Shown piece after piece: positions 22,485-47,232 of a DNA stretch of 64,000 nucleotides. The position numbers and the translations under genes are program-made. Numbering within the stretch: position 1 is the stretch's first letter; every line of letters begins with the position of its first letter. Under the pieces are notes generated by a model. It saw nothing but the letters and a program-made list of their open reading frames with translations, did no database searches and was not told the origin of the DNA. This stretch comes from Burkholderiales bacterium (GTDB lineage Bacteria; Pseudomonadota; Gammaproteobacteria; Burkholderiales; Burkholderiaceae_C). The DNA is taken from assembly GCA_026400105.1 (NCBI GenBank), contig JAPLPQ010000082.1, positions 1 to 64,000 of the forward strand. The letters are read 5' to 3'.

Positions 22485-24552
22485 CGAGCCCGCCATCCTG
22501 CTGGCAGGACTCGATCCCGCGGCCACCCGGGCCGAGCGCCATCTGTGGCTGATCGCCCTGATCGATTGGCTGCGCGGCCCTGAAGCCGACGTGCCGGCCA
22601 CGCTCAAGCGGCTCGGCGCCTTGCTCGATGTCGCCGAGGCCGACCCCGACTGGCTGGCGCGCTGGCGCCTCTGGTGGCGGCGCTTGCGCCAGGATGTCGA
22701 CCTGGCGCCGCTGCTGGCCGATTTCGGCTTTGCCTCGCAATCGGCCTTCATGACCGAGCTCGGACACCGGATCAGGCACAAGCTGCTGCCGAGCTCGCCC
22801 GTGACCACCGACATGAGCGAGCTGTTCGGCCTGCTGTTCCACGATCCGCTCGATGCGCGCTGGCTGGGCGCCCTGTCGCCGCGCCAGCTCGAACGCCTGG
22901 GTGCGCTGCTGGGGTCGGAGCCCGAGCTGCCCGCCGAGAGCGGTAGCTTGACCACGAGCTGCTTGAGCGACTGGGAACAGACGCTGATCGACGCACTGTC
23001 GTTCTGTGTCGGACAGATCAGCGCGACCGGCTTTCGGCCCGAGCTGCGCTCGCGCATGTCGATCGAGGCACGCCAGGGGCGCAGCTTCCAGGACCTGCCG
23101 ATGGCGCTGGAAAACTTTCGCCGTGCCGCCGCCGCGCAGGGCCTGACCAGCGCCGAGGCCCAGGCCCAGCTGCCCGAACTGCACCGGCTGCTGGACCAGG
23201 CGCGCCAGGCCGCCTATTCGGTCTATGCCCATCTCGAGGAGCATGGCATCTCGGTCGGCATCGTGTTCCGGCTGCGCCAGCTGCGCGAGCGGGTGCTGCG
23301 CGCGACCACCCTGCTCGACTGCCTGCTGTCCGAGCAGCGCCCGCGCACGACGGCCCGCTTCATCGGCCAACTGGTGCAGGTCGGGCATGAGAGCCGCAGC
23401 ATCCGCGCCCTGATCGCCAGCAGCACCCAGCTGACCGCGGCGCGCGTGGCCGAGCGCAGCGCCGAGAGCGGCGAGCACTACATCACGCGCAACTGGGACG
23501 AGTACCGCGACATGCTGCTGCGCGCCGGCGGGGGTGGCGCCGTGCTCGGCTTCACGACCTGGTTCAAGTTCCTGCTCGGCGGCCTGGCGCTGTCGGCGTT
23601 CTGGAGCGGGCTGGCCGCGGGCCTGAACTACGCCGCCGCCTTCGTGCTGATCCAGCTGCTGCACCTGACGGTCGCGACCAAGCAGCCGGCAGTGACCGCG
23701 CCGGCCATGGTCGCCAAGCTGCGCGACCTGCGCTCGCGCGAAGGCGTGCTGCGCTTCGTCGACGAGGTCGCGCACCTGTTCCGCTCCCAGGTCGCGGCCA
23801 TCCTCGGCAACCTGGCGCTGGTGATACCTGTGGTGGCCGTGATCAGCGCGGTCCTGTGGCTGACGACGGACACGCCGATGCTGACGCCCGAGAAGGCGCA
23901 CCATGTGCTCGCCAGCCATCAGCTGCTGGGTCCGACCCTGCTGTTTGCCGCCCTGACGGGCCTGCTGCTGTTCGCCAGCAGCATCATCGCGGGCTGGGTC
24001 GAGAACTGGTTCGTGCTGCACAAGCTCGACTCGGCGCTCGCCTACAACCCGACCATCACCGGTCGGCTGGGCAAGCGCCTGGCGCTGCGCTGCAGCCATT
24101 TCATGCGCACCCATATCTCGGGCCTGGCCTCCAACATCTCGCTCGGGCTGATGCTGGGTCTGGTGCCGGCCATCGCGGGCTTTTTCGGGCTCGAGCTCGA
24201 AGTGCGCCACGTGACCCTGGTCACGGGTCAGCTGACGGCCGCCGTGATGGCGCTGGGCTGGACCGTGCTGCTGGAGCCGGCCTTCTGGTCGGCAGTGGCC
24301 GCCACGCTGCTGGTCGGTCCGATCAACCTGGCCGTGAGCTTCTATCTGGCGTTCCGGCTCGCGCTCAAGGCCCGCAGCGTCAGCGACGTCAACCGCCAGC
24401 GCATCCAGGGCGCGATCCGGCATCGCCTGCGCCGCGCGCCGCTGAGCTTCCTGTGGCCGGTCAGCGCCCAGCAGGAAACCCAGGCCGATGCCGACGCCGA
24501 CATCGCCCCCAATGAAACCACCGAGGACGAGCCACCCGATGGGCGAGTTTGA
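22471..24552 (+). CDS. site-specific recombinase family (Gcr-type) membrane protein
   Basis: Starts inside the apaG 3' end; multiple TM segments; family resemblance to the SpecificRecomb group found beside apaG in betaproteobacteria. Confidence 0.75.
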   Translation: MNPIDEPAILLAGLDPAATRAERHLWLIALIDWLRGPEADVPATLKRLGALLDVAEADPDWLARWRLWWRRLRQDVDLAPLLADFGFASQSAFMTELGHRIRHKLLPSSPVTTDMSELFGLLFHDPLDARWLGALSPRQLERLGALLGSEPELPAESGSLTTSCLSDWEQTLIDALSFCVGQISATGFRPELRSRMSIEARQGRSFQDLPMALENFRRAAAAQGLTSAEAQAQLPELHRLLDQARQAAYSVYAHLEEHGISVGIVFRLRQLRERVLRATTLLDCLLSEQRPRTTARFIGQLVQVGHESRSIRALIASSTQLTAARVAERSAESGEHYITRNWDEYRDMLLRAGGGGAVLGFTTWFKFLLGGLALSAFWSGLAAGLNYAAAFVLIQLLHLTVATKQPAVTAPAMVAKLRDLRSREGVLRFVDEVAHLFRSQVAAILGNLALVIPVVAVISAVLWLTTDTPMLTPEKAHHVLASHQLLGPTLLFAALTGLLLFASSIIAGWVENWFVLHKLDSALAYNPTITGRLGKRLALRCSHFMRTHISGLASNISLGLMLGLVPAIAGFFGLELEVRHVTLVTGQLTAAVMALGWTVLLEPAFWSAVAATLLVGPINLAVSFYLAFRLALKARSVSDVNRQRIQGAIRHRLRRAPLSFLWPVSAQQETQADADADIAPNETTEDEPPDGRV

Positions 24553-25510
24553 ACTGATACGCCACTATTTCCAGCGCGCTGGCGCCAACCCGCCCGGCGT
24601 GGTGCTGGGCGTGGGCGACGACTGCGCGCTGCTGCAGCCCGAGCCGGGCCAGCGGCTGGCGGTCTCGACCGACATGCTGGTCGAAGGCCGGCATTTCTTC
24701 GCCGATGTCGATCCGGTCGCACTCGGCCACAAGGCGCTCGCGGTCAACCTGAGCGACCTGGCCGCCATGGGCGCCAGCCCGCTCGGCTGCACGCTCGCGC
24801 TCGCGCTGCCGCGCGCCGACGAGGCCTGGCTGGCCGGCTTCAGCCGCGGCCTGTTCGCGCTGGCCGATGCCGCGGCCTGCCCGCTGGTCGGCGGCGACAC
24901 CACCAAGGGCCCGCTGAACCTCTGCATCACGGTGTTCGGCCAGGTGCCGCCGGGGCAGGAACTGCGGCGCAGCGGCGCGCGCGCCGGCGACGAGGTCTGG
25001 GTCAGCGGCCAGCTCGGCGACGCCCGGCTGGCACTCGACGCGCTGCTGGGCGAAATCGAACTGGCACCCGAGGTGCTGGCGCGCGCACGCCAGCGGCTCG
25101 AACGCCCGACACCCCGACTCGCGCTGGGGCTGGCGCTGCGCGGCATCGCGAGCGCCGCCGCCGATGTCAGCGACGGCCTGTGCGGCGACCTGGGCCATAT
25201 CCTGGCCGCCTCGGGCGTCGGCGCCAAGCTGGCAGCCGACGCGCTGCTGGCCTCGAGCGCCATCAGCGCCGACCTGCGTGCCCTGCCGCGCGAACACGCG
25301 CTGCGCTGCGCGCTGGCCGGCGGCGACGACTACGAGCTGATCTTCACCGCACCGGCTGGCGCGCACGACGCCGTGCTGCAAGCCGCCCGCTCGGCCGCCA
25401 CGCCCGTGTCCTGCCTGGGCCACATCACGGCCGAACCCGGCCTGCGCTGGCAGGACGCCTGCGGCCGGCCACTCGATCTGACGTTGGCCAGCTTCGACCA
25501 TTTCGCCTGA
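24539..25510 (+). CDS. thiL: thiamine-monophosphate kinase
   Basis: MGEFELIRHYFQRA, VLGVGDDCALL, STDMLVEGRHFFADVDPVALGHKALAVNLSDLAAMGASPLG. Confidence 0.96.
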   Translation: MGEFELIRHYFQRAGANPPGVVLGVGDDCALLQPEPGQRLAVSTDMLVEGRHFFADVDPVALGHKALAVNLSDLAAMGASPLGCTLALALPRADEAWLAGFSRGLFALADAAACPLVGGDTTKGPLNLCITVFGQVPPGQELRRSGARAGDEVWVSGQLGDARLALDALLGEIELAPEVLARARQRLERPTPRLALGLALRGIASAAADVSDGLCGDLGHILAASGVGAKLAADALLASSAISADLRALPREHALRCALAGGDDYELIFTAPAGAHDAVLQAARSAATPVSCLGHITAEPGLRWQDACGRPLDLTLASFDHFA

Positions 25511-25538
25511 ATCGCCTGAATCGCCTGAATCGCCTGAA
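25503..25538 (+). repeat. four exact tandem copies of TCGCCTGAA spanning the thiL stop codon
   Basis: tcgcctgaa x4; each 9-bp unit carries an in-frame TGA. Confidence 0.9.
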
Positions 25539-25544
25539 TCCATC

Positions 25545-26411
25545 ATGACCTCCACCGAAACCGAACGCCCGGCGCGCGACGCCGCCTCACTGGTGCTGCT
25601 GCGCGACGGCAGCGCCGGACTCGAGGTGCTGCTGCTGCGCCGCCACGCCGATTCCCGCGTCATGGGCGGCGTCCATGTCTTCCCGGGCGGCAAGCTGGAC
25701 CCGACCGACTGCAGCCCCGATGCACTGGCCGCGCTCGACCTCGAGGCCGAGCAACTGCTGGCACGCTTCGACGAACCCGCGTTGACCCCGGACAAGGCCG
25801 CCGGCCTGCACCTGGCCGCGCTGCGCGAAACCTTCGAGGAAGCCGGCCTGCTGCTGGCCGAAGGCGCCGACAGCGCGGCCAGGCAGGCGCTGGCGGACCG
25901 CCAGGCCGCCGGCGAAGCGCTGGCCGACGCCATGGCCGCGCTGGGCCTGCGCTGGCAGGCCAGCGCCATCCTGCCCTGGTCGCGCTGGATCACGCCGCGT
26001 CACCCGGCCTCGGGGGCCGCCTTCGACACCCGCTTCTTCCTGGCCAGACTGCCAGCCGGGCAGGAGGCCAGGCATGATGGCTACGAGACCACCGAGGCCG
26101 TCTGGCTGGCGCCGCGCCAGGCGCTGGCGCTGCACGCCGAACACCGGCTCGAGCTGGTTCCGCCCCAGCTCATGAGCCTGGTCAAGCTGGCGCGCCACGC
26201 CGATGTCGACAGCGCCTGGAACGAGGCGCTGGTCAGCCGGCCGCCGCGCATCCAGCCCGAGGCCAGCGAGATCGACGGCGAGCGCCTGCTGTACTTGCCC
26301 GGCGATCCGCTGCACTCGGTGCGCGAACGCGCGCTGCCCGGTCCGACCCGGCTGCGCTGGCTGCAACGCCGCTTCGAGCCCGTCGGCGGCTTCGAGGCCT
26401 GGTTCGACTGA
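25545..26411 (+). CDS. NUDIX hydrolase
   Basis: GGVHVFPGGKLDPTDC...ALRETFEEAGLLL Nudix box. Confidence 0.9.
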   Translation: MTSTETERPARDAASLVLLRDGSAGLEVLLLRRHADSRVMGGVHVFPGGKLDPTDCSPDALAALDLEAEQLLARFDEPALTPDKAAGLHLAALRETFEEAGLLLAEGADSAARQALADRQAAGEALADAMAALGLRWQASAILPWSRWITPRHPASGAAFDTRFFLARLPAGQEARHDGYETTEAVWLAPRQALALHAEHRLELVPPQLMSLVKLARHADVDSAWNEALVSRPPRIQPEASEIDGERLLYLPGDPLHSVRERALPGPTRLRWLQRRFEPVGGFEAWFD

Positions 26412-26428
26412 ACAAGATTCAAATTGCC

Positions 26429-26968
26429 ATGGAAACCTCCTACAAGCCTTTCCCGAGGACCGAGCCGGTCCTGCGCCCCGATCGCCGTTTCCTGTTCTCG
26501 CGCCTGTCGCACCTGATCGCGCTGGGCTTTGGCTCCGGCCTGAGCCGGGTGGCACCCGGCACCGTCGGCACGCTCTGGGCCTGGATCGCCTTCCTGCTGA
26601 TCGACCGGCTCGGGATGCCGGGCGACACCGGCTGGGCGCTGATCATCGGCAGCACGCTGCTGCTGGGCTGGTGGGCCAGCGTCGCGACCGTCAAGCGCAC
26701 CGGGGTGGCCGATCCGGGCTACATCGTGATCGACGAGGTGGTCGCGTTCTGGCTCGTGCTCTGGCTGGCGGCGCCGGTCGGTTTCTGGGGCCAGTTCTGG
26801 GCCTTCTGGCTGTTTCGTTACTTCGACGCCGCCAAGCCCGGGCCGGTGCGCTGGGCCGACCAGGCCTTCAAGGGCTGGGGCTGGCGCGGCGGCTGGGGCA
26901 TCATGTTCGACGATCTGGTGGCAGCCGCCTGCACCCTGCTGCTGATCGCGTTCTGGCGCTGGCTCTGA
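26429..26968 (+). CDS. pgpA: phosphatidylglycerophosphatase A
   Basis: GSGLSRVAPGTVGTLWAW, DPGYIVIDEVVAFWL, FDAAKPGPVRWAD, GWGIMFDDLVAA. Confidence 0.95.
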   Translation: METSYKPFPRTEPVLRPDRRFLFSRLSHLIALGFGSGLSRVAPGTVGTLWAWIAFLLIDRLGMPGDTGWALIIGSTLLLGWWASVATVKRTGVADPGYIVIDEVVAFWLVLWLAAPVGFWGQFWAFWLFRYFDAAKPGPVRWADQAFKGWGWRGGWGIMFDDLVAAACTLLLIAFWRWL

Positions 26969-27006
26969 GCCCGCTCGAAACCTTCCACCCTTTACCGAGC
27001 CGCGCT

Positions 27007-27504
27007 ATGCGAACCGACGATCCGGACATCCTGCAACTCTGCACCCAGCTGGCACAGGCGCTCAAGGCACGCGGCTGGATGATGGCCACCGCCGAAAGCT
27101 GCACCGGCGGCCTGATCGCCGCCTGCTGCACGTCCTTGAGCGGCTCGAGCGACTGGTTCGAGCGCGGCTTTGTGACCTACTCCAACGCCGCCAAGACCGA
27201 ACAGCTCGGCGTGCCGGCCACACTGGTCGAGGCCCATGGCGCGGTCAGCGAGCCGGTGGCGCGCGCGATGGCGCTGGGCGCGGTGGCGCATTCGAAAGCC
27301 CAGATCAGCGTGGCAGTGACCGGCGTGGCGGGCCCGACCGGCGGCAGCGCCGACAAGCCGGTCGGCCTGGTCTGGTTCGGCTGGGCGGTTGGCGAGCAGG
27401 CCTGGACCGAATGCCGGCGCTTCGACGGCGACCGCGATGCGGTACGCGCGGCGACCGTGCGGCATGGGCTGCAAGGGTTGCTCGCGGGCCTTGAGGTGAG
27501 CTGA
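27007..27504 (+). CDS. nicotinamide-nucleotide amidase (CinA C-terminal family)
   Basis: MATAESCTGGLIAACCTSLSGSSDWFERGFVTYSNAAKTEQLGV, VAVTGVAGPTGGSADKPVGLVWFG. Confidence 0.94.
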   Translation: MRTDDPDILQLCTQLAQALKARGWMMATAESCTGGLIAACCTSLSGSSDWFERGFVTYSNAAKTEQLGVPATLVEAHGAVSEPVARAMALGAVAHSKAQISVAVTGVAGPTGGSADKPVGLVWFGWAVGEQAWTECRRFDGDRDAVRAATVRHGLQGLLAGLEVS

Positions 27505-27520
27505 ACACAGCAAAAAACCC

Positions 27521-27561
27521 AGAAAAAAGCCCGCAGTCTCACGGCTGCGGGCTTGCTTTTT
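27521..27561. terminator. intrinsic terminator between pncC-like gene and convergent envelope cassette
   Basis: AAAAAAGCCCGCAG-TCTCACGG-CTGCGGGCTTGCTTTTT. Confidence 0.8.
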
Positions 27562-27604
27562 CAGATCACGAAAACCTGGTTCTTCCGACGTTCAGCGGGC
27601 AGGC

Positions 27605-28276
27605 TTATTCGCCCTCGACCTGTGCCACCACCTTGGGCTTCTCGTCCTTGGAAGCGGGCGGCTTCACACCGACTGCGGTGAAGATCGCGGGCATCTTACC
27701 GGCGACGCTGGAAGCAGCTGAGATCTGGTTGCTCAGACTACTGACGGCATCCTTGACGCCACCGAGCTTGGTTATGTTCATCGGGTTGGACGCGAAGCTA
27801 CCGACCAGTCCCTTGCTCTGCTCGATCAACGCCTTGTCCTGCAACAGTGCGAGCATGAAGTTGAACGATGCAGCGGCCAGATCCTCACGTTGCTTGCCGT
27901 CGATCTTCTTGACTTCCGATTCGACATTGGCATTGGTCATAGCTTCGTTGAGTGCAGCCTGTTCAGACTTTCGCACTTCGTTGAGCTTGGCCTGTTTTTC
28001 TGCAGGATCGGTAATTTCATTGGCAGCCTTGCGCTGCGCTTCGAGAGCCGCCGCTTGTTCCTTGGAAACCAGCGAGCGGCTGAGCAGCGCGACCGAATTG
28101 TTCATCAGCTTTTCAGCCGCCAGGGCAGACGCGATGATGGTCTGCGGATCGGACCCTCCCGCATTGCTGCTGCCGCTGAGTACGCCCAGTATTGCGCCGA
28201 ACTGGGCCATAGCGGGCGTTGCCAGCACGCCGAGGGTGCTGGCGATCAGAATGGTTGCGAGACGCTTTTTCATCAT
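27605..28276 (-). CDS. exported protein of unknown function
   Basis: Signal peptide MMKKRLATILIASTLGVLATPAMAQ; Gly/Ser segment then helical K/E-rich region; no family recognised. Confidence 0.75.
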   Translation of the reverse strand: MMKKRLATILIASTLGVLATPAMAQFGAILGVLSGSSNAGGSDPQTIIASALAAEKLMNNSVALLSRSLVSKEQAAALEAQRKAANEITDPAEKQAKLNEVRKSEQAALNEAMTNANVESEVKKIDGKQREDLAAASFNFMLALLQDKALIEQSKGLVGSFASNPMNITKLGGVKDAVSSLSNQISAASSVAGKMPAIFTAVGVKPPASKDEKPKVVAQVEGE

Positions 28277-28297
28277 GGGAATTTTCCAGTCTAGGAA

Positions 28298-30307
28298 TCA
28301 AGGAAGGGGGAAACTGATTTTGTCGACCGCCTTCTCAAGCAAGCCGCGGGCCTCGTCGAGCACATCGGCGTCGAGCAGGCGCTTGAGCTGATCGGGGGAG
28401 GTCGATTTGCCGTAGTAGCCGGCGCTCTTGAACTGGCCTTCAAACGTGATGCGATTGAGGATATCGTCGCCCTTCTTGACGCGCAGCGTGTAGCGCGAGA
28501 CGATCGTGCGCTCGCACTGCGCGCTGCATTGCTCTTCGCCAATGTTCACGCGTTCGACCGGCTGGATGCAGTAGCTCACCGGCGGCAAATTCCACAGAAA
28601 TCCCGATGAGAAGCCGCTCTTGGGTCCTATGACACCGTCGCTCAAGTGCTGCGCATCGGGTGCGTAAAGCATGCCGGGCATCTTCTGCCCCAGAATCAAG
28701 CCAGTCAGCTCCATCAAAGCCGGGGTGCGCGTATTACCCAGCGTCTCGATCGGACCACAGGCGGCCAGCGAAGCGGCGGTCCGCGCAGGCGTTCCCAGGC
28801 GCAGCACCTCGAACGAGTCACCCACAGCCACCTTGTCGTGCCTGGTGTCGATCGGCAGGCCTTGATTCAGCATGGTGGGTGACTGTCCGGTATAGCCCGA
28901 GATGCTGGCCTCGAGCGTCGGCAGCAGGATTTCGCGCGTGTCCTTGCCGACGCGGGCCTTGGCCTTGCGCACGATCACGCCTGGCTGGTGTTCGCCGTAC
29001 ACACGGCCCTGGCTGTTGATCTGGTAGGTCTGGCCGCTGCTGGCAACGATTTCGGCGCGATCGCGCTTGAGCTCGCCGAGCTGACCGAGTTTCTTGCTCA
29101 AGTCCGTCAGCGCGTTCTTGATACTGACCTCGCGCCGCTCTTCGGGACCGGCACCAACGCCGCGCACGATCTTGTCGGTGATGACGTCCGTGCCCATGGC
29201 GCTGTAGATGATCCGGCCGCTGTTGTCGATCACGTCGGCAAAGGCGCGGGTTTCGTAGCGGCGCTGTTTCTCGTAATCGAGGTTGGTTCCGGCCTCGTGG
29301 TAAACCGTGTCCGAAACACGCAGGCGCACGATGAAACCGGGCGGGCGGCGCTCGGCAGACTTCATCGTGCTGAGCTCGACGCCTTCCTGTTCGCGCACGG
29401 TCTGCAGCAGCTGCGTGAATCCGGTGTTGATCTGCACCACCGACAGCGGCGCCGCGTCACCGAGCAGCTCGGCGAACAGGCGCGCGATGTAGTCCTTGGC
29501 ATAGCCTTCGGGCTGCTTGTCAACCAGCACGGCCACTCGCGGGCGGTCCTTGCCGGACGCCGCATGCGCGCTGAACTTCTGGAACTGGGCGCCCAGGCTG
29601 ATGCTGCTTGCCAGCACCGGCTTACCTACGGCGTAGTTCTCGCCCGCATAGACGATCTCGACCAGGTTGTCCGCACTATCCTCGATCCGGTCACCTGCAC
29701 CGATGCCCTGGCGATAACCGGCATCAAAGATCAACAGATCACCGGCCCTGTCGGTCAAGTGCGTTTCGATCACGACCGGGTGAAATTGCCTGGGCGCTTC
29801 AGTGGTGAGATCGTGGATCAGCGTGTCGAGCGCCTGCTTGAAGAGACCGCGGCGCTCGTCGTTCAGGTCGGCACGGTTGGCAACGACGGCACGGCTGATG
29901 ACGGTGCGCGAGAGCGTGGTCAGGATTTCGCCCGAAACCACGTTCGTGAAGTAGATGCCACCCGTCAGGGTAGCCACCACGTCGCTGTTGCCATTGCCTT
30001 TATCGACCGCGAAGCTGCTGGCCCGCGTGACGTGAAACGACACGGCAAAGGTGTTGCCGGCGGTGCGCTGGTCGAGCTTGCCGACGCGCGAACCGAAGGC
30101 CGGCGTCAGCGCGTCGTGGATGTACCGGCCCAGGTTGACGACGGCCTGCTGACTCAGGGACTCGCGAAAGAGCGGGTCGAGCTTGGAGTCGCTGGCGGCA
30201 TCATAGAAGAAGCCCTGGACCGGAAATACCTTCGCCTGCTCTGCCGCCGTCGCCGCTACGGAAACGATGCAGGCCAGCCACAGCAGCGGCTTCAGATATC
30301 TGAGCAT
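28298..30307 (-). CDS. large exported protein with FlgT-C/CsgG-like segments, unknown function
   Basis: Signal peptide MLRYLKPLLWLACIVSVAATAAEQA; GDLLIFDAGYRQGIGAGDRIE (FlgT-C-like); RPRVAVLV...FADVIDNSGRIIYSA. Confidence 0.75.
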   Translation of the reverse strand: MLRYLKPLLWLACIVSVAATAAEQAKVFPVQGFFYDAASDSKLDPLFRESLSQQAVVNLGRYIHDALTPAFGSRVGKLDQRTAGNTFAVSFHVTRASSFAVDKGNGNSDVVATLTGGIYFTNVVSGEILTTLSRTVISRAVVANRADLNDERRGLFKQALDTLIHDLTTEAPRQFHPVVIETHLTDRAGDLLIFDAGYRQGIGAGDRIEDSADNLVEIVYAGENYAVGKPVLASSISLGAQFQKFSAHAASGKDRPRVAVLVDKQPEGYAKDYIARLFAELLGDAAPLSVVQINTGFTQLLQTVREQEGVELSTMKSAERRPPGFIVRLRVSDTVYHEAGTNLDYEKQRRYETRAFADVIDNSGRIIYSAMGTDVITDKIVRGVGAGPEERREVSIKNALTDLSKKLGQLGELKRDRAEIVASSGQTYQINSQGRVYGEHQPGVIVRKAKARVGKDTREILLPTLEASISGYTGQSPTMLNQGLPIDTRHDKVAVGDSFEVLRLGTPARTAASLAACGPIETLGNTRTPALMELTGLILGQKMPGMLYAPDAQHLSDGVIGPKSGFSSGFLWNLPPVSYCIQPVERVNIGEEQCSAQCERTIVSRYTLRVKKGDDILNRITFEGQFKSAGYYGKSTSPDQLKRLLDADVLDEARGLLEKAVDKISFPLP

Positions 30308-30319
30308 GCTGTCGCCTGC

Positions 30320-31921
30320 TTATTTTTTGCCGCGTGCGACACTGGTCGCAGCAGGTGCCGGAGCGGCGCAGCTGTTGAGGCACAGCACTAGGGTTTCGCC
30401 CATTTCGGCGCCGTCGAGGTTCCTGCCAGCAAAGGCTGGCTGACTAGACACTGCACCGAAAACCTGCTCCATCGCGCTACTCTTACCCTTGATCGTGACC
30501 GTAGCGCGCACGCCCGCATCGGAGTTCTCCTTGGTTTCCACATCAGTGGCATCAGGAATCTCTCGCAAGGCCTTGGCAAACGCCATGCGCAGCGGAAAAT
30601 TCAGGCCTGCGCCCTTGAACTCGACCGTGTACTGGCGGCCACGCGCAGCACGATCAGCCCAGTAACCCAGCGTGCGGTTGGCAAACTCGGGGGCGAGCAT
30701 GCTCGCGATCTTGGTCGATGCCTTGGCCGAGCAGTCCTCGATGTTGCGACCTGCGGCTTCGGTGCTTTGGGCTGCTGACGAAATCTGTTCACTGCCTGCG
30801 GTCGCGAACACCTTGACCTCAGCCGTGACAGAGCAACTCTGCATGCCGGTCGCCGGGTTGATTTCGCCCGCGATGACAGTGGACGAACCCACCATCAGGA
30901 AGTCGGCGTTCGACTTGCGCGCGAACTCGGCAAATTTAGCCATCTCGGCGCTACTGCCGAGCGTTGCCAGCGTGATCTTGCGGTCACCAAAGAACTTGCT
31001 GCGGGTAATGGAGGAATCAAGCAGGCGCAAATCGTAATCACGCAGCGAGCCACCGAAGGATGAGAGGAACACCGAGTTGGCAATCGGCTTGGAAGTATCC
31101 TGGTATTCGACCAGCTTGCGGTAGGAAGCCTTCTCGTGGCTTTGGGCGTCGACATTGGCCTGGTAACTGGAAGCGCTCGCCGATTTCGACGATGCTGACG
31201 CAGCCACGCTGTCGTTCGAGCGATAGCTGGCCGCGCTCGCGCTCTGGCCCCTGAAGCTGCTACTCGAGGCCGCCGCACCTGCACCGTTGTAATCCTGGAC
31301 GGCAACGGCGCTGTTTGCTACGCCGGCCACCTGCGAGGCAGACGCGCGCGATGCGTTCACGCTCGAGGAGGCGGCCATCGCCGCACTGCTCGACAACGAA
31401 CTGGCACTGGCAGCACGAGTCTTGTCCTTGTAGGAGGCACCGGCGTCATACGAATATTCGGTCAGTTCGCGCAGCGGCACTTTCAGGTCGCGGCTGTTGG
31501 TCACGAACTCGTCGACCAGCATCAGGATCGAGAAGCTGCGGTCATTGAGCTTGTCGAGTTCGGTCCCGCGGATCGCGTTCTTAATCTGGCGCCGGTCCAC
31601 ATGAGCGTCGATGCGCGTGACGAAATCGGCCCCTTCGCGCACTTCTTCAATGACGCGCACTTCGCGCAGTTGCTTGGCGACCTCGTGGACGATCGCGGCG
31701 TGGCGGCTGTCGCTGGCGTCGAGCGCGGTGGCATCCTTGATCGCCTTGATGACAGCGTCGCGCAACGCTTCCTGCTTGGCTGCGTTGCGGATCGAGGCGG
31801 CATCACCGGCGCCCACGGGAGTGCGGCCTTCACCGATCACGGTGTTCTGGGCCAGTGCGGGAACGGCCGTCAGACTGGCAGCCAGCGCCAAGCCGATTGC
31901 AGTCAGGGTATGTCTTTTCAT
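30320..31921 (-). CDS. exported FlgT-N/LPP20-like protein with Ser/Ala-rich low-complexity segment
   Basis: Signal peptide MKRHTLTAIGLALAASLTAVPALAQ; VIGEGRTPVGAGDAASIRNAAKQEALRDAVIKAIKDA; central AASASSLSSSAAMAASSSVNASRASAS. Confidence 0.78.
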   Translation of the reverse strand: MKRHTLTAIGLALAASLTAVPALAQNTVIGEGRTPVGAGDAASIRNAAKQEALRDAVIKAIKDATALDASDSRHAAIVHEVAKQLREVRVIEEVREGADFVTRIDAHVDRRQIKNAIRGTELDKLNDRSFSILMLVDEFVTNSRDLKVPLRELTEYSYDAGASYKDKTRAASASSLSSSAAMAASSSVNASRASASQVAGVANSAVAVQDYNGAGAAASSSSFRGQSASAASYRSNDSVAASASSKSASASSYQANVDAQSHEKASYRKLVEYQDTSKPIANSVFLSSFGGSLRDYDLRLLDSSITRSKFFGDRKITLATLGSSAEMAKFAEFARKSNADFLMVGSSTVIAGEINPATGMQSCSVTAEVKVFATAGSEQISSAAQSTEAAGRNIEDCSAKASTKIASMLAPEFANRTLGYWADRAARGRQYTVEFKGAGLNFPLRMAFAKALREIPDATDVETKENSDAGVRATVTIKGKSSAMEQVFGAVSSQPAFAGRNLDGAEMGETLVLCLNSCAAPAPAATSVARGKK

Positions 31922-31938
31922 GCTGTTCTAACCTTGGC

Positions 31939-32448
31939 TTATTTCAATGCGGGGACCTTGAGGACGATGTCGCCAGCACGCAGCACCTGCATACCCTCTT
32001 TCTCGGTGATCGAAACCGAACCACTGTCCTGCTCTTCTTCCTTCTTGGACTCGCGGCCGGGAAAGTGGATCTTCATCAGGTCCTTGTAGGCCACCATCGA
32101 CTTAATCGGCTCCAGATTTACGTTGCTGTCGATCTGGACGTCATCCTTGAGGCCGGTCTTGAGTGCCTGCTCAAGTGCTACCAGCGCGGCGTTCCTGTCG
32201 CCCGCCTGGGCCTGTGCCTGCGCAAGCACGAAATAAGCCTCATACTGCTCTGGCGCCTTTTCGGTCCATTTCTTGGCGGTCTGCACAGCGGTGGCAAAGT
32301 TGCGTGACGCCAGTGCGGCGCTGGCGTCGGCCTTGAGCTTTTCTGCATTTGCCAACAAATCGCAGGCGCTGAGAACCAGGCCGAGGCACAAAGTGACCAC
32401 GACGTTACGTGCGGTGCGTGTAGCGAAGGCTCTGGATGCGTGCTTCAT
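31939..32448 (-). CDS. TPR-like lipoprotein
   Basis: Lipobox LSAC (VVVTLCLGLVLSACDLLA) followed by TPR-like KWTEKAPEQYEAYFVLAQAQAQAGDRNAALVALEQALK. Confidence 0.75.
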   Translation of the reverse strand: MKHASRAFATRTARNVVVTLCLGLVLSACDLLANAEKLKADASAALASRNFATAVQTAKKWTEKAPEQYEAYFVLAQAQAQAGDRNAALVALEQALKTGLKDDVQIDSNVNLEPIKSMVAYKDLMKIHFPGRESKKEEEQDSGSVSITEKEGMQVLRAGDIVLKVPALK

Positions 32449-32457
32449 GAAAATATC

Positions 32458-32934
32458 TCAGCGTGCAAACATTTGAAGGGTGTAACTACGGCCGTACTGG
32501 CTCTGGCACAGCCCCGAAAGCGTCTGAGACAGATAGCCGACATTGACGTCGTTGCGCACCGGCACGATGCAGCTCAGGTTGGCACCCTTCGTCTGCAGGC
32601 GCCCGTTGATCACGAAGCTGCGCAGGCAATAGGGGTTGGGATCGTCGCGGCAGGATTCGGGCTGCACATGCAGCCGCCCCATCGGAGTTCCATCGGTTCG
32701 ACTGACTTCGAACTGCGCGCTCCCCGCCAGAAACTGCATCTGCCCCTGCAGAGACTGCTCGGTGGGACCGGCGTTCTGGGCATACAGCTCCAGGCGCACA
32801 TAGCGCGAGAGATCCGGCGTAACAGAGACGGAAGGTGCGGCAGGAACAACTGAACCCTGAGGGGAAGACGATGCACAGCCTATGAACAAAGTCGACAAGA
32901 TGCACAGATAACAGGTAGGAATGATTCTTTTCAT
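32458..32934 (-). CDS. lipoprotein of unknown function
   Basis: MKRIIPTCYLCILSTLFIGCASSS lipobox; no recognised domain. Confidence 0.72.
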   Translation of the reverse strand: MKRIIPTCYLCILSTLFIGCASSSPQGSVVPAAPSVSVTPDLSRYVRLELYAQNAGPTEQSLQGQMQFLAGSAQFEVSRTDGTPMGRLHVQPESCRDDPNPYCLRSFVINGRLQTKGANLSCIVPVRNDVNVGYLSQTLSGLCQSQYGRSYTLQMFAR

Positions 32935-32955
32935 ATCATATTCAAATATTGTTAT

Positions 32956-32983
32956 TTTATATACTGCTGAATATAAATTTCAA
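32956..32983 (-). promoter_or_regulatory. candidate sigma70 promoter of the envelope cassette
   Basis: On the minus strand TTGAAA-N16-TATAAA inside a strongly AT-rich tract. Confidence 0.55.
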
Positions 32984-33200
32984 ATAAGAAATCATCATAC
33001 ATGATGTGAAAATGAGCCAATGCTGCCGTCTAATGCACCGGACGGGCGATACGGGGGGCATCACCGACAGCATCATGGGTATGCGATGGAGCCAACAGCG
33101 GTGTGGGTTTCCAGCAAGCACTGTCGGAGTTCTTGGCCGTTATAGGTACGGTGCCACGCCAGGCCGAACTGGTCGCTGTCAGATGAGCGCACGGCACTAA

Positions 33201-33221
33201 CTCAAGCCGCCACGGCTTGAG
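33201..33221. other. perfect inverted repeat CTCAAGCCG-CCA-CGGCTTGAG
   Basis: 9-bp arms, 3-nt loop, no T tract. Confidence 0.6.
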
Positions 33222-33287
33222 CTCACAGTCGATGTGATGTCTCCCCTACGCTACCTCGTCAAGGGAGAAGAGTAGCGCCAACGCGCC

Positions 33288-33665
33288 TCAAGGCAGCGGA
33301 TGCAAGGGCTGCGCCGCGTGGTGCGGATGCTCGAGCCGGCGGATCACTTCCTTGACGATGCCGAACATCAGCGCCCGGTCGCGGCTCGGGTGATCGGAGA
33401 AATGGACCTTGGTAGCGCCGATCTCGGCGCCGTCGGGCTCGCTCGCGTCTTCCGAAGTCGGAAATACCAGCGACAGCCCATGCTGCGCCAGCAGCGGCCC
33501 GCAGGCCGCCCAGTCGCGCGTCCAGGCCGGCAACGCCTGCGCGCCGGCCCAGAGCGTGCCGACGCTCTCGTAGCATTCCTCGATCTGCTGGTGTCCCAGC
33601 AGCTGCGCCAGCTGCCGCTCCTTGGCAATGCAGCTGCGGAAATAGTCCTGGTCGCTGATGCGCAT
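33288..33665 (-). CDS. conserved-looking hypothetical protein
   Basis: MRISDQDYFRSCIAKERQLAQLLGHQQIEECYESVGTLWAGAQALPAWTRDWAACGPLLAQHGLSL. Confidence 0.65.
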   Translation of the reverse strand: MRISDQDYFRSCIAKERQLAQLLGHQQIEECYESVGTLWAGAQALPAWTRDWAACGPLLAQHGLSLVFPTSEDASEPDGAEIGATKVHFSDHPSRDRALMFGIVKEVIRRLEHPHHAAQPLHPLP

Positions 33666-33735
33666 GTCGATCTCCTCACGGTGGATGCTGGAACGATTGA
33701 ATGCGCAGCCGGCCCGGGCGTCAAGCCTGGCCGGC

Positions 33736-35217
33736 TCAGGCGGCTTCGCTCCCCTTGGCACCCAGCCGGTCGATCAGCACCGCGCTGGCCTGATTGAGCC
33801 CGACCACCTCGACCGCACAGCCATGGTGGCGCAGCCGCTCGACCACCTTGTCGAGCGCGGCCACTGCCGTGATGTCCCAGAAATGCGCCCGTGCGAGGTC
33901 GATCCGCACCGGGCGCCGCTCGGCATCGAGGATGTCGAAGGCCTCGATGAAGGCATCGGCCGAAGCAAAGAACACCTGGCCGGTGACGCGCCAGGTGCGC
34001 AGGCCGGTGCTGTCGTCGTCCTCGGCGCGCACTTCGAGCAGGTGCGATACCTTGACGGCGAACAGCACGCCGGTCAACAGCACGCCAACTCCGACGCCAG
34101 CGGCCAGGTTGTGGGTCGCGATCGTCACCACCACGGTCGCCAGCATGACCGCGCTCGAGCTGCGCGGATGCACCACCAGCGCGCGCAGCGAAGCCCAGTT
34201 GAAGGTGGAAGCCGACACCATCACCATGATCGCGACCAGCGCCATCACTGGCACCCGCGACACCCAGGGCTTGAGCGCCACCATCAGCAGCAGCAGGAAG
34301 ACGCCAGCAAACAGGGTGGAGAGCCGGCCGCGGCCACCGTACTTCACGTTGCCGACCGCCTGGCCGATCATGCCGCAGCCCGCGATGCCGCCGAACAGGC
34401 TGGCCGCCATGTTGGCCAGCCCGAGGCCCGAGCATTCGCGGTTCTTGTCGCTCGGGGTCTCGGTCATCTCGTCGACCACGCTGGCGGTCAGCACCGACTC
34501 GAGCAGGCCGACCATGGCGATCGCCAGCGCCGGCAGCGCGATGATGCGCAGCGTCTCGAGCGACAGCGGCACCTCGGGCAGGCCGAAGCTCGGCAGCGCA
34601 TCGGGCAGCCGGCCGAGGTCGGCCACCGTCGCCAGCGGCAGACCCAGCGCCTGACTCAGCAGCGTCAGGACCAGGACGCAGATCAGCGGCGGCGGAATCA
34701 GCGTGAAGACGGCCCAGGGCAGCAGCGGCAGGCCGTAGATCAGCAACAGGCCCAGCGCCAGCATGGCCCAGCCCATGCCGTTGGCGGCCTGCAGATGGGG
34801 CCATTGCGCGGCAAAGATCAGCAGCGCCAGCGCATTGACGAAGCCGGTGCGGACCGAACTCGAGACAAAGCGCACCAGCACGCCCAGGCGCAACAAGCCG
34901 AACGCGACCTGCACCAGCCCGGCCAGCAGACCGGCCGCCAGCAGGTAGGCCAGGCCGTGCGCGGCCATCAGCGGCGCCGCCACCAGCGCCACCGAGCCAG
35001 CCGCCGCCGACACCATGGCCGGACGCCCGCCCGCGAACGCGATCACCAGGCTGATGACGAAGGAGGCGAACAGCCCGACCGCCGGATCGACGCCGGCGAC
35101 GAAGGAGAACGCGATCACCTCGGGAATCAGCGCGAAGGTCGCGACCGCGCCGGCCAGCAGCTCGCGCGGGATGCTCGGCGCCCATTCGGCGCGCAGGCGT
35201 TGCAGGGAATGCTTCAT
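33736..35217 (-). CDS. SulP family anion transporter with C-terminal STAS domain
   Basis: Multiple TMs, SDKNRECSGLGLANMAASLFGGIAGCGMIGQ, C-terminal VRIDLARAHFWDITAVAALDKVV STAS. Confidence 0.93.
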   Translation of the reverse strand: MKHSLQRLRAEWAPSIPRELLAGAVATFALIPEVIAFSFVAGVDPAVGLFASFVISLVIAFAGGRPAMVSAAAGSVALVAAPLMAAHGLAYLLAAGLLAGLVQVAFGLLRLGVLVRFVSSSVRTGFVNALALLIFAAQWPHLQAANGMGWAMLALGLLLIYGLPLLPWAVFTLIPPPLICVLVLTLLSQALGLPLATVADLGRLPDALPSFGLPEVPLSLETLRIIALPALAIAMVGLLESVLTASVVDEMTETPSDKNRECSGLGLANMAASLFGGIAGCGMIGQAVGNVKYGGRGRLSTLFAGVFLLLLMVALKPWVSRVPVMALVAIMVMVSASTFNWASLRALVVHPRSSSAVMLATVVVTIATHNLAAGVGVGVLLTGVLFAVKVSHLLEVRAEDDDSTGLRTWRVTGQVFFASADAFIEAFDILDAERRPVRIDLARAHFWDITAVAALDKVVERLRHHGCAVEVVGLNQASAVLIDRLGAKGSEAA

Positions 35218-35286
35218 GATGTCAAATGAAAAAACCGGCGCCACCCAGACAGGCAGCGCCGGCGTTGGAGCCATGGCCAGAGGAAA

Positions 35287-36141
35287 TCAGTCCGGTTGGA
35301 ATCCCAGCAGCTTGAACGGGGTATCGAACAATATCTGCCTTCTGGCTGCAGGATCGGTGACCTGCTGCTCGAACAGTTCCAGCAAGGCCCCGATGTCCAG
35401 ACGCTGCCTGGCACGCAGATGCGGCCAGTCCGAGGCCCACAGGCAATGGGCCGGGCCATAGGCGGCCAGTATTTCGGCCACATGGCGGTCCGCATCCGGG
35501 TAGGGATACTCGAGGGCCGAGAACTTGTCGAAGCCGGACAGCTTGATGTAGCAGCGGCCGGTTTCAGCCAGCGCCAGCAGGGCGGAGAAGCCCGCGCCTT
35601 GCAGTCCGTCGCGCAGGCCGGGCCGACCGCAATGATCGATCAGGAATCGCGCCGGTGAATTCCTGATGGCCGGAGCCAGCCGCAGGATCTGGTCGTCCCG
35701 GACCTGTATCTGCACCAGCAGGCCCGCAGCGGCCAGGCGTTGCCAGAACTTCTCATGACCGGGGTAGGCATCCTCCCCCAGCAGCGCGAAGTTGTGCGCG
35801 ATGCCCACCACGCCGCGCGCCTTGAGTTCCTGCAACTCGGCGTCGCTGCAGGAGAAATCCGCGATCGCAATGCCCTTGAAGCGGTTGCCGCCCGTCTCGA
35901 TCGCGTCGAGCAGGCAGCGGTTGTCGGCGCCATAGCCGGAGTTGGGCTGCACCAGCAGGGCATGCCTGATGCCATGGCTGTCCATCAGCTGGCGCCAATA
36001 GCTCGCCGGCGCGATCTCCCCCCCCGTCGGACGGTAGGCCACGTCCGGAGAGTAGGGAAATCTCAGGGGATCGAACACATGGCAATGCGTGTCGATCTTC
36101 GGAAACGCCACATCAACGGGCCGCTGCGATGCAGGATTCAT
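35287..36141 (-). CDS. amidohydrolase family (2-pyrone-4,6-dicarboxylate hydrolase-like)
   Basis: KIDTHCHVFDP, FLIDHCGRPGLRDG, LWASDWPH. Confidence 0.9.
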   Translation of the reverse strand: MNPASQRPVDVAFPKIDTHCHVFDPLRFPYSPDVAYRPTGGEIAPASYWRQLMDSHGIRHALLVQPNSGYGADNRCLLDAIETGGNRFKGIAIADFSCSDAELQELKARGVVGIAHNFALLGEDAYPGHEKFWQRLAAAGLLVQIQVRDDQILRLAPAIRNSPARFLIDHCGRPGLRDGLQGAGFSALLALAETGRCYIKLSGFDKFSALEYPYPDADRHVAEILAAYGPAHCLWASDWPHLRARQRLDIGALLELFEQQVTDPAARRQILFDTPFKLLGFQPD

Positions 36142-36162
36142 ATCGATGCCCTGCCTTGCGAA

Positions 36163-36966
36163 TCAGGCGCCGCAGCATTTCTTGAACTTCTTGCCGCTGC
36201 CGCAGGAGCAGGGATCGTTGCGGCCGGGCTCCTCGCCCTTGACCACCTGCTCGACGCGCGGGCCGATGCTCTTCCAGAGGTCGCGCAGGTCGTAGGCGGC
36301 CCAGATCGCGTCGCCATAGGCGTTGATGCGGGCCTGGCTCACGCTCGGCGGGCTGTCCTCGCCGAACATGCTGATGACCGGCTCGCCGTCGTCGTCCTCG
36401 GTCAGCGTGATGATGCGGTTCAGCGCGTCTTCCAGCCACTCGCGCGCTTCCTTGTCGCGCGGGGCGGCCCATTCCTCGGGCCAGGTCTCGACCACGAACA
36501 TGAAGCCCAGCGCCCAGACCTGGGCGAAATAGGGCAGCTCCTGATCGGCCAGTTCATCGGCCATCTCGGCGCGCTCGGACTCGCTCATCGCGGCGACGGC
36601 ACCGCGCACGTCCATGACTTCGGGCGCGTAGGCGCGCGCGTCCTCGAGGTTGTCGACCTGGGCGTCGAGCGCGGTGACGACCTCGTTCCAGCGCCGGTTC
36701 CACAGCGTCAGGAACTGCTCGTACTGCTCAGGGCTGGCGAACAGCTCGGGGCCGAACTGGCCGCTGTCCTCGTCGCCCATCAGGGCGCCGAAATACTCGG
36801 CGGCCGGAATGTCGCGGCGGCAGCAGATCAGCGCGGCGATCACGCCCTCGCAGAACTCCCATTGCGGGACTTCGTCGAGGCGCTCGCGCAGGCTGTCCAG
36901 GATCTGGTCGAGCGCGTCGAATTCCTGGTCGTTCATGGGCTCAAGGGCGGGGGTAGCGGTGTTCAT
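36163..36966 (-). CDS. UPF0149/YecA family protein with C-terminal SEC-C zinc motif
   Basis: C-terminus GRNDPCSCGSGKKFKKCCGA; helical YecA-like N-terminal part. Confidence 0.9.
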   Translation of the reverse strand: MNTATPALEPMNDQEFDALDQILDSLRERLDEVPQWEFCEGVIAALICCRRDIPAAEYFGALMGDEDSGQFGPELFASPEQYEQFLTLWNRRWNEVVTALDAQVDNLEDARAYAPEVMDVRGAVAAMSESERAEMADELADQELPYFAQVWALGFMFVVETWPEEWAAPRDKEAREWLEDALNRIITLTEDDDGEPVISMFGEDSPPSVSQARINAYGDAIWAAYDLRDLWKSIGPRVEQVVKGEEPGRNDPCSCGSGKKFKKCCGA

Positions 36967-45294: not shown

Positions 45295-45316
45295 TCCGGC
45301 CCAGGCACCGAAGCGA

Positions 45317-45351
45317 AAGGACCGGCGCGGGAAACCGCCCGGTCCTTTTTT
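45317..45351 (+). terminator. intrinsic terminator downstream of benD
   Basis: AAAGGACCGGCGCGGGAAACCGCCCGGTCCTTTTTT. Confidence 0.9.
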
Positions 45352-45420
45352 CGCCCCCAGCGCACCCCGCCCGCCCCTCCGGCTTGTGCGACGGCAGCGA
45401 ATGCCGGTCCGGTACAGACG

Positions 45421-45458
45421 AAAAAAACCGCTCCCTGGAGTAATTCTCCGGGGAGCGG
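45421..45458 (-). terminator. intrinsic terminator downstream of benK (minus strand)
   Basis: CCGCTCCC...GGGAGCGG with 7 A (T tract on the minus strand). Confidence 0.8.
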
Positions 45459-45504
45459 GCGATGGTTCAGGAAATGGCCGGCAAGGCCGGCCTCCTCAAG
45501 AGCC

Positions 45505-46851
45505 TCAGGCGTTCGCTGCGGCGAGCTTGACAGCAGGCTTGGCCGAGGCGTTGCGCCCCATCGGCAGCACCAGCGTCAGCACCGCGCCGACCGCTGCGAC
45601 ACCGGCCAGAATCTGGAAAGTGGCGTCGATCGGCAGCTCGGCCTGCTGCATGTAGCCGATGAAGACCGGGCCGACAACGCCGCCGAGACGGCCGAAGCCA
45701 GCGCACCAGGCCACGCCGGCACCGCGCACGTTGGTGCGGTAGTAGTTGGAAACCAGGCCGTAGATCAGCACCTGCGTGCCGCTGGTGCCGAGGCCGACGA
45801 CCGCGACGATCGCGAGCAGGCCAGCAACCGGGAAGCCCATCGTCATCAGGAAGATCGCGACAGCGCCGATCGCGAAGCAGGCGACGACCACCGACTTGGC
45901 GCCGAAGCGGTCAGCGACCTTCGACGCCAGCAGGGCGCCGAGCACCGCACCGCCGTTGAGAATGAGCAGGAACTGCAGCGAACCCTTGGTGTTGAAGCCA
46001 GACTTGCTCATCAGCACGGGCAGCCAGGTGTTGAGCGAGTAGACCAGCAGCAGGCCGAGCGCGCTCATCAGGCCGAGCAGCACGGTGGGGGCCAGGTAGT
46101 CTGCGAACAGACCGACGAAGCCCTTGCGGCTGCCGGCGGCGGCCGGCGCATCGGCATGCACCGGATGCGCCTCGGGCAGCGGAACGCCGGTGCGCTCGGA
46201 CAGCGCACGCGCTTCTTCCATGCGGCCGTGCGAAGCCAGCCAGGCGACCGACTCGGGCATCTTGAAGTAGGCCAGCGGCAGCAGCGTCACGAACGGCAGC
46301 GCACCGAGCCAGAACATGCCGCGCCAGCCGATGTGCTCCAGCAACATGATCGCGAGCAAGGCGGCCAGCAGGCTGCCCAGCGGGATGCCCGAATAGACGA
46401 TCGCGTTGCACAGGTTCTTCTTGTCCTTGGGCGCGTACTCGGCGACCAGTGCGCCGGTGGTCGCGACCAGTGCGCCAACGCCCAGGCCGGTGATGAAGCG
46501 CAGCAAGCCGAAGCCCGAAGTGGTGTCCATCATCGCGGTGACGGCCATGCCGATCGAGAACCAGGCGTAGGAGCCCAGCATCACCTTGCGGCGGCCGATG
46601 ATGTCGCCGACGGTGCCGGCCATCAGCGCGCCGACCAGCACGCCGAACAGCGCGTAACTGCCGAGCTGGCCAGCAAGCGCGGAAGTGACCTGGCCGATTT
46701 GCGACGGATCGCTCAGGAATTGCTTGACGACGGCGCCATAGACGACGAGGTCGTAGCCATCAAAGATCAAACCGACGGTGGCCAGCGACACCACCCAGAG
46801 GATGGTGCGCAGGCGGCGGGCTTCTTGCGCGGATTGGTCAGGAGTTGCCAT
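45505..46851 (-). CDS. benK: aromatic acid (benzoate) MFS transporter, AAHS family
   Basis: LATVGLIFDGYDLVVYGAVVKQFL, VLVGALMAGTVGDIIGRRKVML; located with benABCD. Confidence 0.85.
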   Translation of the reverse strand: MATPDQSAQEARRLRTILWVVSLATVGLIFDGYDLVVYGAVVKQFLSDPSQIGQVTSALAGQLGSYALFGVLVGALMAGTVGDIIGRRKVMLGSYAWFSIGMAVTAMMDTTSGFGLLRFITGLGVGALVATTGALVAEYAPKDKKNLCNAIVYSGIPLGSLLAALLAIMLLEHIGWRGMFWLGALPFVTLLPLAYFKMPESVAWLASHGRMEEARALSERTGVPLPEAHPVHADAPAAAGSRKGFVGLFADYLAPTVLLGLMSALGLLLVYSLNTWLPVLMSKSGFNTKGSLQFLLILNGGAVLGALLASKVADRFGAKSVVVACFAIGAVAIFLMTMGFPVAGLLAIVAVVGLGTSGTQVLIYGLVSNYYRTNVRGAGVAWCAGFGRLGGVVGPVFIGYMQQAELPIDATFQILAGVAAVGAVLTLVLPMGRNASAKPAVKLAAANA

Positions 46852-47028
46852 GGGATATCCAGTTGGGAGAAACAGCGGCCCGCAGGGGCCGATGACGGGA
46901 GGAACTCGCCGGCAGCAGGGCCTGGATCGAGACGAAAAAGCTCGTACGGCAGGTCAGCTACGAGCGCCCGACGAAGCGCCGGCAGTCGCTCGCGCGACGA
47001 GAGACGTGACTAAGTTTAAGCTTGCACG

Positions 47029-47043
47029 ATACTAATTCGGTAT
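47029..47043. promoter_or_regulatory. LysR-type operator ATAC-N7-GTAT (benK/pcaD intergenic)
   Basis: ATACTAATTCGGTAT. Confidence 0.8.
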
Positions 47044-47126
47044 AAGTAAAAACCCGAATATTTTGATCTACATCATGGAAATTGAGCCGAAATAGGCCTT
47101 ATTCGCCTTAATCTCAAACCCTATTG

Positions 47127-47141
47127 ATACTTTATAAGTAT
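47127..47141. promoter_or_regulatory. LysR-type operator ATAC-N7-GTAT (benK/pcaD intergenic, proximal to pcaD)
   Basis: ATACTTTATAAGTAT. Confidence 0.8.
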
Positions 47142-47232
47142 AAGTACAGTCCTGAAAGGTATTTCATCGCCAATCCCTCCAGCTGAAAGGCGCCTTAACA
47201 TAAGGCACTTCCTTCATCCTTCCCTTATCTCC

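Follow-up and report, generated by a model that had tools for sequence, protein, structure and literature searches.

Within a 64,000-nucleotide stretch of a Burkholderiales bacterium genome (contig JAPLPQ010000082.1, positions 1 to 64,000; hereafter the window), five open reading frames (ORFs) lie on the minus strand between positions 27605 and 32934, separated by spacers of 9, 17, 12 and 21 bp. A preliminary description had read them as a closely spaced five-gene cassette of exported proteins; the coordinates and spacers bear this out, and the lipoboxes of genes 1 and 2 and the cleavable Sec-type signal peptides of genes 3-5 can be read in the sequence as it had proposed. The core of the locus consists of genes 2-5, or strictly of genes 3-5, with gene 1 outside it. 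This core is a real, conserved and mobile module, in which proteins of a known fold class occur in a new arrangement.

The genes are numbered in order of transcription, all on the minus strand. Gene 1 (32458..32934) encodes a 158-amino acid (aa) lipoprotein with the lipobox LFIGC (FIGCAS). Gene 2 (31939..32448) encodes a second lipoprotein of 169 aa (lipobox LVLSAC, or LSAC), composed of a TPR-like part and a conserved C-terminal tail (SVSI..VLRAGDIVLKVP). The product of gene 3 (30320..31921) is an exported protein of 533 aa, with a FlgT_N/DUF2066-like N domain, a CsgG/FlgT_M-like domain bearing a Ser/Ala-rich insert and a C-terminal alpha/beta domain with a conserved Cys. The insert forms a loop of residues ~142-262 (31136..31498; 52% Ser+Ala) between beta-1 and alpha-1 of the CsgG-like domain. 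Gene 4 (28298..30307) encodes an exported protein of 669 aa, predicted to consist of FlgT/CsgG-type domains in the order M-C-M-C plus a partial M. Gene 5 (27605..28276), the last of the core module, encodes an exported protein of 223 aa whose signal peptide ends in AMA, followed by Q; it has no Cys and by eye appears mainly helical. A promoter-like site (TTGAAA-18-TAAAAT; 32983-32954, minus strand) precedes gene 1 by ~20 bp. Between cinA and gene 5 there is a terminator-like stem with a T-rich tail on both strands (27527..27554), the strongest stem of its kind in the region. There is no clear regional excess of either type of site (2 promoter-like sites against 1.1 expected by chance, 6 terminator-like sites against 5.8).

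The module recurs in other genomes. A tblastn search of plasmids with gene 4 yielded five records, a pattern-guided scan of genome contigs seven loci, and genomes from the genus of a Cupriavidus carrier two more, for a total of 14 loci besides the window. The copies are located on plasmids or chromosomes, and the carriers include Caballeronia grimmiae (plasmid), Caballeronia concitans, several Cupriavidus, Rivihabitans pingtungensis, Psychrobacter urativorans (plasmid) and Novosphingobium humi (plasmid), and the records with genes 3-5 are labelled as alpha-, beta- and gammaproteobacteria. Genes 3, 4 and 5 stand in identical order in every one of the 14 loci, and in 11 of them gene 3 is directly preceded by gene 2 or, at minimum, by the gene 2 tail. 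The cassette of the preliminary description is thus retained for genes 3-5 and, for the most part, gene 2; it loses gene 1, of which no copy was found outside this genome among the loci and genomes compared. No further neighbour gene is common to all lineages, and the flanking genes differ. Identity to the window proteins is 22-32% for gene 3, 23-28% for gene 4 and 21-36% for gene 5, and the pairwise divergences of the three genes are correlated (r 0.98; 0 of 2000 permutations for gene 3 against gene 4). The ratio of nonsynonymous to synonymous substitution rates (dN/dS) is 0.02-0.22, values being unreliable for pairs with high dS. In several Cupriavidus, gene 2 encodes only ~71 aa, made up of a signal, a linker and the tail AGDxSVExxxxGTVVRAGDVSV; these versions have kept the tail but lack the TPR part, which is therefore dispensable.

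Some copies show particular features. Gene 3 of Cupriavidus sp. EM10 (L006 6111-7918; the same sequence in L023) is split into two ORFs by a frameshift or sequencing error, and genes 3 and 4 of Cupriavidus sp. UYMMa02A (L013 2872-6530) are each split into two by frameshifts or sequencing errors. The Caballeronia plasmid copy (L002 12611-17944) is located near a TerD/VWA/TerY/PP2C cluster. A gene-3 profile match in genome G512 was considered as a module member and rejected, being a DUF2066 protein.

In the window the module and gene 1 together occupy a block of ~5.8 kb (27483..33280) between cinA and a sulfate permease gene (sulP), with a guanine-plus-cytosine content of 0.54-0.64 against ~0.70 outside. 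In a genome of the same genus, G004, the flanks of this block (23213-27482 and 33281-35276, 92-93% identical) are separated by ~40 bp, and this short site makes an insertion between cinA and sulP the simplest explanation of the block. In a second genome of the genus, G002, the same flanks are separated by ~880 bp that do not align to the window. Comparison of the block ends gave no match to insertion-sequence remains and no convincing terminal repeats, and no relatives were found in phage and viral collections. In genome searches that score only the best first-look candidates and may miss very divergent copies, gene 4 was not found in 60 relatives, four of them of the same genus, nor in 386 other genomes of the class or 398 of the phylum. 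In the family of a Caballeronia carrier, 3 of the 301 genomes have it, as do 8 of 60 genomes in a Cupriavidus genus sample chosen around one known carrier and including five further carriers identified beforehand. It is a rare module, subject to purifying selection, and genes 2-5 are horizontally mobile; both its conservation and its mobility are established computationally.

The stretch 33000-33280, between gene 1 and the sulfate permease side, contains no recognised gene and no plasmid match; it carries a short inverted repeat (CTCAAGCC...GGCTTGAG) and is possibly what remains of the carrier that brought the block in. An amidohydrolase gene (35287-36141; Pfam Amidohydro_2) falls within an alignment gap relative to both G004 and G002 (35277-36165), and therefore represents a second small gene gain or loss beside the insertion. 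Another stretch of the window, 45295-47231, does not align to G004.

Genes 3-5 have no confident match in Pfam, NCBIfam, PHROG, PADLOC or PDB sequences. The one exception in the family scans is a sub-threshold TPR match of gene 2, which supports its description as a TPR-like lipoprotein. The Pfam FlgT models match no module member at E up to 1 and FlgT_M matches nothing in the window genome; CsgG (PF03783) is unmatched among module members, and DUF2066 (PF09839) does not match gene 3. The LPP20 model is matched by a single gene-4 relative (E 0.44), and some gene-4 relatives weakly match a lipoprotein attachment-site model.

Structure prediction and profile comparison are more informative. AlphaFold2 models were built from seven-sequence alignments of window and genome-contig sequences and compared to the PDB with Foldseek. 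The gene 3 model matches FlgT (3w1e, E 5.4e-7) and the LPHT ring (8z5n, E 2.3e-6), followed by PelBC, CsgG and PelC; for gene 4 the order is 8z5n (E 2.5e-11), 3w1e (E 1.1e-10) and then CsgG, chain 0 of 8z5n being taken as FlgT from its length and rank. An independent FlgT alignment of 19 proteins was also compared by hhalign, with 20 column-shuffled controls each, none of them below P 0.04. Residues 15-110 of gene 3 align to FlgT N (P 8e-4), and gene 4 has two distinct regions that align to FlgT M-C (P 4e-4 and 1e-4); the match of the second domain of gene 3 to FlgT M is weak (P 0.04) and no better than controls. Direct comparison of gene 4 with itself shows no significant internal duplication, and direct homology between genes 3 and 4 is not significant either. 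Gene 4 is nevertheless read as a repeat because of the two separate FlgT matches and the predicted model, whose secondary structure follows the order M-C-M-C with a partial third M-like part. A DUF2066 protein also aligns to the N domain of gene 3, both by BLAST (E 4e-6) and by hhalign (P 2e-5). Prediction thus supports both the FlgT/CsgG-type fold class assigned to genes 3 and 4 and the order of their domains, and Foldseek and hhalign uphold the likeness to FlgT and CsgG first seen by eye.

In the model of gene 3, the signal peptide is followed by a beta-alpha-alpha-beta-beta N domain, a strand (130-138) and the Ser/Ala stretch; after it a helix, a strand, helices, three long strands and a long helix complete a CsgG/FlgT M-type fold, and an alpha/beta domain with the conserved Cys forms the C-terminus. 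The Ser/Ala-rich segment of the preliminary description is therefore present, and its location can be refined to the inside of this M-type domain. It is 101-149 residues long with 40-52% Ser+Ala in every homologue, and is unstructured in the model. In CsgG, the loop after strand 1 is the constriction loop that lines the pore. Judging by strand order rather than by residue-level structural alignment, the Ser/Ala loop looks to be placed where CsgG has its pore loop. The sheets of both models have strands of up to ~18 residues and, at the low confidence of these models, no added hairpins that could be interpreted as the CsgG transmembrane strands. Genes 3 and 4 also have invariant cysteines, which would suit the oxidising periplasm.

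What could such a module do? On balance, genes 2-5 probably constitute a mobile, self-contained periplasmic/outer-membrane assembly of FlgT/CsgG-fold proteins that works outside the flagellum. The stand-alone envelope module suggested by the preliminary description is supported by the synteny found elsewhere, and the recognised neighbours agree that no flagellar, curli or secretion genes adjoin the window locus. PelC and FlgT build rings at the outer membrane, and CsgG forms one as well. By analogy, the products of genes 3 and 4 may join into a ring- or disc-shaped complex on the periplasmic side of the outer membrane, and the gene-2 lipoprotein would tether this complex through a short C-terminal tail that is conserved. 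The ring lumen might be filled or gated by the hydrophilic Ser/Ala-rich loops that gene 3 contributes, and gene 5 is a putative soluble partner, or else a cargo. Such an assembly would in effect gate export across the outer membrane or reinforce this membrane, and an export gate and envelope protection are the leading guesses for the biological task. A bolder and rather doubtful suggestion is that a two-protein FlgT-type ring, its lumen filled by many long disordered Ser/Ala-rich loops acting as a selective gel-like gate, together with a tail-carrying lipoprotein tether and a small periplasmic partner, represents an undescribed class of transferable envelope machine.

Several observations weigh against this assembly. 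Confidence in the models is low to moderate (mean predicted local distance difference test score 55 for gene 3 and 64 for gene 4), and whole-chain template modelling scores to FlgT are low (0.16-0.34); together these support likeness at the level of domains and support neither the placement of the domains nor ring formation. None of the Pfam FlgT, CsgG and LPP20 models is matched confidently, and gene 5 has no family match in the scanned libraries. Three of the 14 loci (Psychrobacter, L004; Cupriavidus pampae, L010; and L024) yielded no gene 2, and in most Cupriavidus it measures only ~71 aa; its tether role may therefore not be universal. Moreover, gene 2 of the window has Asp at +2, a residue that retains lipoproteins in the inner membrane in E. 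coli.

Alternatively, the module could be an envelope-based defence, forming a surface or periplasmic barrier against the entry of phage DNA, conjugation or toxins. Its patchy, mobile and plasmid-borne occurrence, with flanks that vary among lineages, fits this role, as does the neighbourhood of the Caballeronia copy. However, there is no match to the PADLOC models of known anti-phage defence systems, no recognised defence genes stand beside the window locus, and the low dN/dS shows no sign of an arms race, which leaves defence an unlikely explanation, if a conceivable one. Somewhat harder to sustain is secretion of the curli/Fap kind, in which gene 3 or 4 would supply an outer-membrane pore resembling CsgG, and gene 5 (or gene 2) a substrate that is exported or forms fibres. 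CsgG ranks high among the fold matches of both large proteins, and gene 5, with its signal peptide, always adjoins downstream, but the models, albeit of low confidence, have no hairpins that can be interpreted as the transmembrane strands of CsgG, gene 5 by eye has no amyloid-like repeats, and the CsgG Pfam model is unmatched.

A flagellar accessory is improbable too. The module would then have been acquired as an H-ring-like disc around the flagellar LP ring that stiffens the motor, as FlgT, FlgO and FlgP do in Vibrio. FlgT is indeed the closest solved fold, and the flagellar gene FlgH is present elsewhere in the window genome and in two Cupriavidus carriers; therefore host biology alone does not argue against a flagellar role. 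Yet four genomes of the same genus have FlgH without the module, none of the annotated copies has recognised flagellar genes next to it, and the domain architecture is unlike the N-M-C of FlgT. In addition, genes 3-5 are carried on a plasmid of Psychrobacter, a genus described as non-motile (PMC12281858). Finally, that unrelated exported genes have come together by chance is barely credible given the order of genes 3-5 kept across alpha-, beta- and gammaproteobacterial records and their correlated divergence, which refute it for these genes, as the synteny largely does for gene 2, although it stands for the unconserved gene 1.

The preferred reading, a mobile assembly outside the flagellum, would add to the history of a small periplasmic fold that has been reused in FlgT, CsgG, PelC and LpoB for flagella, amyloid export, polysaccharide export and wall synthesis. 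Searches of open-access text turned up no description of such a module. If the reading is true, this fold would have gained one more role, in a compact, mobile system that repeats FlgT-type domains and apparently works independently of the flagellum, and the system could bear on the origin of flagellar disc proteins from general envelope scaffolds. With four genes in ~5 kb, the module is small enough for laboratory expression and imaging.

How does the module compare with known systems? A structural likeness among FlgP, FlgT and LPP20 (HP1456) has been reported (PMC11756786), and in view of it the N domain of gene 3 may be of a broad FlgP/LPP20 kind, although gene 3 of the window, differently to the FlgP/LPP20-type lipoproteins, is not a lipoprotein. 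The same domain aligns with DUF2066 at 24-31% identity, in an alignment that reaches strand 1 of the second domain, whereas the compared protein lacks the Ser/Ala loop and the later domains give no significant alignment. With CsgG, PelC/PelBC and the GNA1162 lipoproteins the module shares the core alpha/beta fold, as detected by Foldseek with the predicted models, and the strand-helix order of gene 3; it differs in having extra N and C domains, no transmembrane hairpins recognisable in these low-confidence models, no pel or csg neighbours and, in the window, a gene 3 without lipidation signal. The likeness to FlgT, the Vibrio flagellar H-ring protein, extends at domain level to both large proteins, through the structural matches and the profile matches to N (gene 3) and M-C (gene 4). 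However, FlgT unites N, M and C in one polypeptide beside flagellar genes, whereas the module, away from such genes, is predicted to split and repeat these domains over two: N and M with another C-terminal domain and the Ser/Ala loop insert in gene 3, and M-C-M-C with a partial M in gene 4.

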